Source: Clostridiaceae bacterium
GTDB lineage: Bacteria > Bacillota > Clostridia > DSM-8532
NCBI GenBank assembly: GCA_012522505.1
Contig: JAAYKJ010000119.1
Location: forward strand, 1-38,441
DNA: 38,441 bases
Reading direction: 5' to 3'
Shown: in pieces, positions 5,103 through 36,830 of the stretch
Layout of the letters: each line of letters starts with the position of its first letter
Position numbering within the stretch: the first letter of the stretch is position 1
The notes under the pieces: generated by a model
Database searches by the model: none
Told to the model about the DNA's origin: nothing
What the model saw: the letters and a program-made list of their open reading frames with translations, nothing else
Made by a program: the position numbers and the translations under genes

Positions 5103-6293
5103 TTACAATCCTGCTTCGCGCCTTATTGCTTTGGCCTTGTCTGTTTTTTCCCAGGTGAAAGCCTCATCATCTCTGCCAAAATGCCCATATGCTGCAGTCT
5201 TGCGGTATATGGGACGCCGCAGGTTTAAATCCCTGATAATTGCTGCAGGCCGGAGATCAAATAGCTTACCGACGATCTGTGCTATCTGCTCTTCGGGTAT
5301 TTTTCCTGTTCCAAATGTATCAATCATAATGGACACCGGCTTTGCCACCCCAATCGCATAGGCCAGCTGCACCTCACAGCGATTTGCCAAACCGGCTGCC
5401 ACGATATTTTTCGCAACATACCTGGCTGCATAAGCCGCTGAACGATCCACCTTGGTCGGATCCTTTCCTGAAAAAGCGCCACCGCCGTGTCGCCCCATTC
5501 CCCCATAAGTATCGACGATAATCTTTCTGCCTGTCAGACCGGAATCGCCCTGAGGGCCTCCGATCACAAACCTGCCTGTCGGGTTAATCAGATACCGGGT
5601 TTTTTCATCTAAAAGGTGTGCAGGAATGACAGGCAGAATAATCTTTTGGATCACTTCCCGCTCTATGGTATCGTGATCAACTTCCGGGCTGTGTTGGGTT
5701 GAAATAACCACTGTATCGACCCGTTTTGGTTTATGGTCTTCATATTCTACAGTCACCTGCGATTTCCCGTCAGGGAGCAAAAAATTCAACAGACCGCTCT
5801 TCCGTGCATCGGTAAGTGCTTTTGTCAGCTTATGAGCCAGTGATATTGGCATGGGCATCAATTCGGGGGTTTCGTCACAGGCATAGCCGAACATCATACC
5901 CTGATCTCCTGCTCCAATCGCTTCTATCGAATTGCTTTCCATTTCATTTCTCTTTGCCTCCAGTGCTTCATTCACACCCAGAGCAATATCTGTAGACTGC
6001 TCGTCAATGGCGGTCAGTACCGCACACGTGTCGCTATCAAAGCCATATTTAGCCCTGTCATATCCGATATCCCGAATGGTCTCCCGGACCACCTTTGGAA
6101 TGTCAACATAGCAAGATGTTGTAATCTCCCCCATCACCAAAACCATTCCGGTTGTCACTGCCGTTTCGCAGGCTACCCTCGCCATCGGATCCTCCGTTAG
6201 GATTGCGTCCAGGATGGCATCGGATATATTGTCACATATCTTGTCCGGATGGCCTTCTGTTACTGATTCCGAAGTAAACAGAACGTTTGACAT
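5103..6293 (-). CDS. metK: S-adenosylmethionine synthetase
   Basis: The 396-residue protein is a full-length MetK, which makes S-adenosylmethionine from methionine and ATP. Visible signatures are the N-terminal [13 protein letters not shown] with the active-site His (GHPDK at residues 14-18), [12 protein letters not shown], and [20 protein letters not shown] chose the ATG at 6293 because AAAGGAG sits nine bases upstream; the in-frame ATG at 6302 directly abuts that site. The gene stands alone behind its own promoter and a SAM-I riboswitch with an attenuator, so it should be shut down when its product is abundant. Confidence 0.98.
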
Positions 6294-6398
6294 AAAATGC
6301 ATCTCCTTTCAAAACTTCTTCAATGAAGCATGCAGGGTTAATCATTTCCAAAAAGCCATCTGCCAATACTTGGGTTATGGAAAGCTTTCTGCAGAAAT

Positions 6399-6422: not shown

Positions 6423-6436
6423 CCCAATTCACGCTC

Positions 6437-6533
6437 CTCATCTTTCAGGATATATCCTGCAGGAATTGGCACCGTACCAAATGCCGGTTGCCGGGTTTCA
6501 CAGGGCCCAGTCCCTCCACCTCTCTTGATAAGG
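6437..6533 (-). ncRNA. SAM-I (S-box) riboswitch aptamer
   Basis: Read on the minus strand, the leader has the conserved S-box blocks in order: CTTATCAAGAGAGGTGGAGG, GGACTGGGCCC, TGAAACCCGGCAACC, GGTGCCAATTCC, then a closing GATGAG. This is the standard SAM-I aptamer that senses S-adenosylmethionine and ends transcription early. It sits about 140 bases before metK with the terminator just after it. Confidence 0.95.
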
Positions 6534-6558
6534 AAAAACCAATATTTAGCTACCACAT

Positions 6559-36138: not shown

Positions 36139-36450
36139 TTACAGTTTGATTTCGATATCCACGCCAGCCGGAAGATCCATTCTCATCAGAGCATCTACCG
36201 TTTTCGGTGTTGGAACCAGAATATCAATCAACCTTTTATGGGTCCTCATTTCAAACTGTTCGCGTGAATCCTTATATTTGTGGGGCGCACGCAGAATAGT
36301 GATTATCTCTTTCCTGGTCGGTAGTGGTACCGGCCCCGATACCTTTGCCCCGGTCCTTTTTGCCGTATCCACAATTCTCTCTGCGGATTGATCCAATACT
36401 TGATGATCAAAAGCTTTCAGCCGAATACGGATTTTTTGTTTGTTCGCCAT
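36139..36450 (-). CDS. rpsJ: 30S ribosomal protein S10
   Basis: The 103-residue protein has [20 protein letters not shown] and [20 protein letters not shown], typical of S10 (NusE), which also takes part in transcription antitermination with NusB. It is the first gene of the operon. GGAGG lies seven bases before the ATG. Confidence 0.98.
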
Positions 36451-36468
36451 ACATAAGCCTCCTCACTC

Positions 36469-36504
36469 ATGCTTCCAACACTGCAACTCAACGCGTGAAA
36501 GCAT
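36469..36504 (-). promoter_or_regulatory. hairpin just upstream of the rpsJ ribosome binding site
   Basis: On the minus strand ATGCTTTC pairs with GAAGCAT with one bulge, ending a few bases before the GAGGAGG of rpsJ. Another stem ACACTC/GAGTGT (36559-36585) lies between it and the leader terminator. They could control access to the start site. Confidence 0.35.
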
Positions 36505-36592
36505 TTTATTGTTTGTACCATCCGGCACATTTTGTAATGACGCAACAAGTTTTTCTGTACACTCTGCCGGGTGTGTCGCGAGTGTTCATATG

Positions 36593-36637
36593 AAAAACCC
36601 AGGACGAACAAACAACAAAATGTTTGTTAAACCTGGG
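36593..36637 (-). terminator. intrinsic terminator inside the S10 operon leader
   Basis: CCCAGG/CCTGGG (6 bp) stacks on AACAAACA/TGTTTGTT (8 bp) across a 3x3 internal loop, with a 6-base apex, followed on the minus strand by TTTTTC. It lies about 160 bases after the promoter and 143 bases before rpsJ, so it would stop operon transcripts unless read through. Confidence 0.8.
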
Positions 36638-36658
36638 CTCTGTAACAAACATACTTCA

Positions 36659-36678
36659 CGCATATGCGAACATATGCG
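36659..36678 (-). other. UUCG-loop hairpin in the S10 leader
   Basis: On the minus strand CGCATATG and CATATGCG form a perfect 8-bp stem closed by a TTCG loop, about 20 bases before the leader terminator. Such loops are stable and common in structured RNAs. Confidence 0.6.
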
Positions 36679-36801
36679 ATCACGCAAGATGTACAGTGAC
36701 TTGTCGCCCGGTTTCTCTGAATCGGACATTCTCCATTGAAGTTCCCCAGATCGAGCCTGGCCATCTCCAATTTCATCGTATGCCATGTCACAACGTTCAT
36801 C

Positions 36802-36830
36802 ATTATACTATAAATTTTTTTTCATGGCAA
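36802..36830 (-). promoter_or_regulatory. S10-spc-alpha operon promoter
   Basis: On the minus strand TTGCCA (36825-36830) and a perfect TATAAT (36802-36807) are spaced by 17 bases, with an A/T-rich spacer. Transcription would start near 36795, giving a leader of about 345 bases before rpsJ. It lies between rimI and rpsJ. Confidence 0.8.

Follow-up and report, generated by a model that had tools for sequence, protein, structure and literature searches.

Why an intrinsic terminator should lie between the promoter and the first gene of the S10 operon is the question raised by a locus of a Clostridiaceae bacterium (contig JAAYKJ010000119.1), examined here in a window that comprises the whole stretch of 38,441 nt. 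To our knowledge, the control of the large S10-spc-alpha ribosomal protein cluster in Gram-positive bacteria is poorly known, and the L4 mechanism of Escherichia coli is not thought to be applicable to all of them.

On the minus strand of the window, promoter and rpsJ are separated by a structured leader of about 345 nt (Table 1). The strong promoter found before rpsJ in the sequence-only reading is present; promoter-like hexamers occur at the equivalent site in the leaders of relatives, and transcription is expected to start near 36795. An open reading frame overlapping the leader (36786..36586) was rejected as a leader peptide, its frame being broken by length changes in relatives.

Table 1. 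Coordinates of the rpsJ leader and its predicted elements in the window
Feature	Position	Strand	Remarks
Sigma-70 type promoter	36830..36802	-	TTGCCA-17-TATAAT; 11/12 consensus matches
S10-Clostridia leader domain, RF03136	36784..36701	-	conserved 5′ strand, P1, P2, P3
P1	36771-36765/36741-36735	-	
P2	36760-36756/36750-36746	-	
P3	36727-36723/36710-36706	-	
5′ strand common to PL and P4	36706..36690	-	CGACAAGU..CUGUACA
P4	36696-36690/36647-36640	-	
P4b	36678-36671/36666-36659	-	apical UUCG-loop hairpin within P4 (36678..36659)
Possible lineage-specific antiterminator hairpin	36652..36620	-	AUGUUUGUUA/UAACAAACAU; exclusive with terminator
Intrinsic terminator	36640..36593	-	lower stem GAGCCCAGG/CCTGGGTTT, upper stem AACAAACA/TGTTTGTT, five-U tract 36597-36593
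Post-terminator element	36577..36565	-	GACACACCCGGCA (consensus GAAACACCCGGCA)
PL 3′ strand	36561..36543	-	UGUACAG..ACUUGUUG
Hairpin 1 of two between PL and ribosome binding site	36529..36514	-	
Hairpin 2 of two between PL and ribosome binding site	36504..36469	-	
rpsJ Shine-Dalgarno	36463..36458	-	AGGAGG; from sequence
rpsJ (ribosomal protein S10)	36450..36139	-	S10 operon gene 1

The RF03136 domain and related leaders

The sequence-only reading could not match the leader to a named class and pointed to the Rfam leader models; a named class does fit, since a permissive Rfam scan returned a full-length match before rpsJ to RF03136, the S10-Clostridia leader, with 34.4 bits and an E-value of 3.2e-5, that is 0.7 bits below the gathering cutoff of 35.1 bits. 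The match is the sole significant one in the genome and sits in the 5′ UTR of rpsJ, on the same strand as the gene; the cutoff is exceeded in at least three genomes of the same bacterial family, and RF03136 was matched in 252 of 391 Clostridia genomes. A control search of E. coli gave no match to RF03136 at E ≤0.01. The model has 81 positions, fits the first 84 nt here, and ends at the P3 3′ strand and a few bases beyond it. In the ten close leaders, 100%, 81% and 100% of the cells were paired for P1, P2 and P3, respectively; a further helix P0 (GUGAC/GUCAC) was rejected, its covariation not being significant (z -1.5). Judged by sequence, the leader belongs to a known RNA family, whose catalogue model covers only its first half. 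Elsewhere, the window contains an ordinary SAM (S-box) riboswitch (6435-6534, minus strand, 91.6 bits), which precedes a metK-like open reading frame (5103..6302, minus strand) by about 130 nt.

The S10 ribosomal protein leader of Clostridia was described as fundamentally the Firmicutes motif of Yao et al. 2007 and was not discussed further (PMC7247131). The leaders studied here agree with RF03136 in the site before rpsJ and in the sequence and structure of P1-P3; the model lacks the insert described below, and with it the terminator, the element and the helices P4 and PL. Another motif, RLC-47-1, is likewise a structured rpsJ 5′ UTR of Clostridia and probably represents the same or an overlapping leader; in the passages of that paper considered here, it is assigned to three genera of one family only, the Peptostreptococcaceae, and a terminator is not mentioned (PMC11109978). 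Attenuators have also been predicted for translation-related operons of many bacteria, namely the rpsL-leader and rimP-leader, but these are different motifs in front of other operons, and rpsJ is absent from the main text of that paper (PMC2965389). Within the main texts of the papers searched, neither the terminator nor P4 or PL of the Clostridia S10 leader was found to be described. The S10 leader family is known, and what is added here is the insert with its terminator, P4, element and PL.

The insert, its terminator and its helices

The first leader set was chosen partly via a P3 DNA pattern, and the main tests were rerun on 135 rpsJ leaders of the class Clostridia picked by RF03136 alone. 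These leaders contain a module inserted 3′ of the RF03136 domain, with a conserved element (GAAACACCCGGCA) at its 3′ edge; the element is matched at 10 or more of its 13 positions in 109 of the 135, compared with a mean of 2.8 leaders for shuffled consensus sequences, and the distance from the end of P3 to the GAAACACCCGGCA block ranges from 35 to 234 nt. One genome (G028) carries two rpsJ leaders of different lineages, L014 (G028:C35) and L050 (G028:C14), which looks like assembly contamination.

The terminator of the window folds at -24.2 kcal/mol (z -6.2, none of 200 shuffles being as good). It had been described as a 14-bp two-part terminator with a T-run; the terminator, its two-part stem and five U stand, while the stem is really of about 16-17 pairs. 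A simple scanner overlooked it because of the internal loop. The conservation and covariation of the stem that the sequence-only reading would imply were both found in relatives: a hairpin at least as stable as -9 kcal/mol, with a U-tract on its 3′ side, is present at a fixed site just 5′ of the element, about 22 nt before it, in 80 of the 87 leaders with an insert of at least 100 nt, compared with 21-27% of shuffled inserts, and the stem covaries with a z of -16.6. None of the 19 leaders with inserts of 30-60 nt has it. In a larger, partly pattern-chosen set, the hairpin occupies the fixed site in 130 of 131 long inserts, and the distance between the U-tract of the best hairpin and the element is 21-25 nt in 105 of 129. 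Nearly all stems have the U-tract on their 3′ side (mean 5.4 T in 8 nt), and the terminator-bearing leaders are drawn from more than 20 families. The base of the lower stem, GCCC(A/G)..(U/C)GGGU, recurs in the window (36639-36593) and in distant Clostridia, and is conserved beyond what a terminator needs. A pairing between the terminator 3′ arm and the post-terminator element was rejected (no covariation, z -0.8). Leaders L174-L178, also from Clostridia, have PL and the element and no terminator hairpin; together with L005 and L006 they form a clade with the top RF03136 scores, in which PL and the GGACACACACGGGAGAGUGUACAG block are kept, the terminator is missing and a different hairpin lies immediately 5′ of GAAAAGGAGG.

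The insert is closed by a long-range helix, PL, in which the strand following P3 (CGACAAGU, CUGUACA in the window) pairs with the strand following the element (UGUACAG, ACUUGUUG). PL was tested without alignment of the arms: for each leader, the duplex energy of its native arms was set against that of arms exchanged among leaders. Across 82 dereplicated leaders, native arms gave -18.26 and permuted ones -13.98 (sd 0.31, z -13.7, 0 of 3000 permutations), with z -10.9 for short-insert and z -7.6 for long-insert leaders. Arm swapping controls for relatedness incompletely and shifted windows do so in part; the control windows (shifted, reversed and at the start codon) gave z between +0.4 and -2.2. 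In some lineages the arms are wholly different yet complementary, as in L015, where GCGACUUUAAGACGUUUCGAUAA pairs with UUAUCGGUGUCUUAAGUCGC. PL is also present in the short-insert leaders, which lack the terminator hairpin. Since its 3′ arm lies downstream of the terminator, PL itself is unable to decide termination.

The strand following P3 can also pair with the 30 nt immediately 5′ of the terminator, forming a helix here named P4 (z -4.6 and -5.7, with controls from -0.8 to -1.8); because both helices use the CUGUACA strand, P4 and PL are mutually exclusive. The UUCG-loop hairpin noticed in the sequence-only reading is indeed present, as the apical part of P4 (P4b). Its loop, being closed by G-C, is not of the extra-stable cUUCGg type and is not conserved among relatives, whereas the stem is kept, with four of the eight pairs changed on both sides. 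The two further hairpins, of which the last was said to lie beside the ribosome binding site, were also recovered: the last one does adjoin this site, ending 5 nt short of the Shine-Dalgarno sequence and leaving it uncovered. Both are present in the nearest genera only, and hairpin 2 corresponds to a consensus stem in the alignment of ten close leaders.

A candidate for the antiterminator is the P3 3′ strand (CCGGGC), to which the 5′ arm of the terminator (GCCCRG) is complementary in the majority of leaders. In foldings of leaders truncated just before the terminator 3′ arm, the base of the 5′ arm paired with the P3 3′ strand at a mean probability of 0.29 (above 0.5 in 22 of 70), compared with 0.10 for scrambled arms (7% above 0.5); the pairing does not covary (z -1.2), as there is almost no variation in either strand. 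Its probability is low in the window (0.06), and equilibrium folding always favoured the terminator. The local hairpin AUGUUUGUUA/UAACAAACAU has 92% of its cells paired in ten leaders; its covariation is at the level of shuffles and it was rejected as a general antiterminator, but it could act in place of the P3 strand in the lineage of the window. Base pairing between the 5′ end and the stretch preceding the terminator was predicted for the window but rejected, as it is not conserved (z +2.4).

Proposed premature termination and the alternatives to it

The second half of the Clostridia leaders, with its long-range helix and, in most, a terminator at a fixed place, points to feedback control by premature termination, as far as sequence comparison can tell. 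We put at about 0.6 the probability that the full-length Clostridia S10 leader consists of a domain binding a ribosomal protein (P1-P3) coupled to an inserted transcription-attenuation platform. The likely attenuation suggested in the sequence-only reading is partly supported by comparison, namely by the fixed site of the terminator, its covarying stem and the abutting P4; that read-through is regulated, and that a protein ligand and an antiterminator take part, we infer. In the proposed mechanism, the P3 3′ strand would pair alternatively with the P3 5′ strand (GUCCG) or, across P4, with the terminator 5′ arm. An excess of a ribosomal protein of the operon would bind and hold P1-P3, leaving the terminator arm free, so that the terminator would form and end transcription at about 203 nt; with too little protein, the arm would be held by P4 and the P3 strand, and RNA polymerase would continue into the operon. 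After read-through, PL would replace P4 and fix the mature leader.

The terminator might instead be constitutive and partial, stopping a fixed share of transcripts or trimming those arriving from the upstream tsaE-tsaB-rimI genes, with translation as the regulated step, via P1-P3 and PL. Translation is the likely target in the compact leaders of other classes, and several Clostridia lineages keep PL and the element without a terminator. Against this, the terminator is part of the leader that the operon's own promoter transcribes, most of the class keeps its spacing to the element fixed, and it is directly preceded by a covarying helix; in the window, it lies far from the start codon. This explanation is regarded as unlikely.

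The E. coli S10 leader is subject to attenuation by L4 and NusA (PMC10931766). Both leaders are long and structured and precede the same operon, and the premature Rho-independent termination of the E. coli leader is predicted in the Clostridia one as well; the covarying P4 and PL are features of the Clostridia leader. By analogy with this precedent, L4 bound to the upstream domain could stabilise a NusA-paused polymerase at the terminator, with no strand exchange; a strong terminator with a preceding hairpin is found here as in E. coli. On the other hand, no recognisable rRNA-like site was found: in a crude sequence comparison with a relative's 16S and 23S loci, no leader segment outscored shuffles. 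A heat-stress proteome study of Clostridium difficile reported its own data not to fit the E. coli L4 model (PMC3933415). A mechanism of this kind is regarded as quite unlikely.

Alternatively, the hairpin could be mainly a structural arm of the mature leader inside PL, or an element for processing or stability, with an incidental U-tract. The constant spacing to the element and the closure of the domain by PL after read-through would suit such a role, but a U-tract stands behind the stem in almost every leader, the apical part varies freely as it does in terminators, and leaders with short inserts possess PL while lacking the hairpin; we consider it improbable.

Antitermination by NusB-S10 at a boxA in the leader, one form of the Nus-type control suggested earlier, comes to mind since S10 is identical to NusE and is encoded by rpsJ, with which the operon begins. 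It is unsupported and very improbable: no sequence resembling boxA was found in the leader, the closest match (6/11) falling short of the shuffle mean of 7.2.

Proposed expression platforms across the phylum

In other classes of the phylum, the P3 3′ strand lies directly 5′ of the Shine-Dalgarno sequence in 34 of 35 leaders (as in CGGGCGAAAAGGAGG), and the motif start is 80-115 nt from the start codon where measured; in Clostridia this distance is 170-442 nt (median 263), and the longer distance implies extra sequence between the domain and the start site. Among the leaders of these other classes (L281-L297 and L302-L321), in which the P3 strand runs into the Shine-Dalgarno sequence, L304 is the sole exception of the 35, its long insert containing a block that resembles CACACACGG. 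Since the domain sits directly on the Shine-Dalgarno sequence in the other classes, it most likely acts there on translation. The simplest reading would be that the expression platform has changed, acting on translation elsewhere and by transcription attenuation in many Clostridia, with no direction of change implied.

Tentatively, and at somewhat less than even odds, we further propose that a single ribosomal protein leader domain serves two platforms within one phylum: a translational one placed on the Shine-Dalgarno sequence and, in Clostridia, attenuation by a terminator module closed by PL, where exchange of the P3 strand would couple protein binding to termination and PL would act as a second checkpoint after read-through.

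In Clostridia, the S10 leader as catalogued makes up just the 5′ half of a far larger RNA. The comparison defines individual stems of this RNA, predicts a stopped transcript of about 203 nt and suggests mutations that can be tested; the protein-binding domain seems to have swapped its expression platform.
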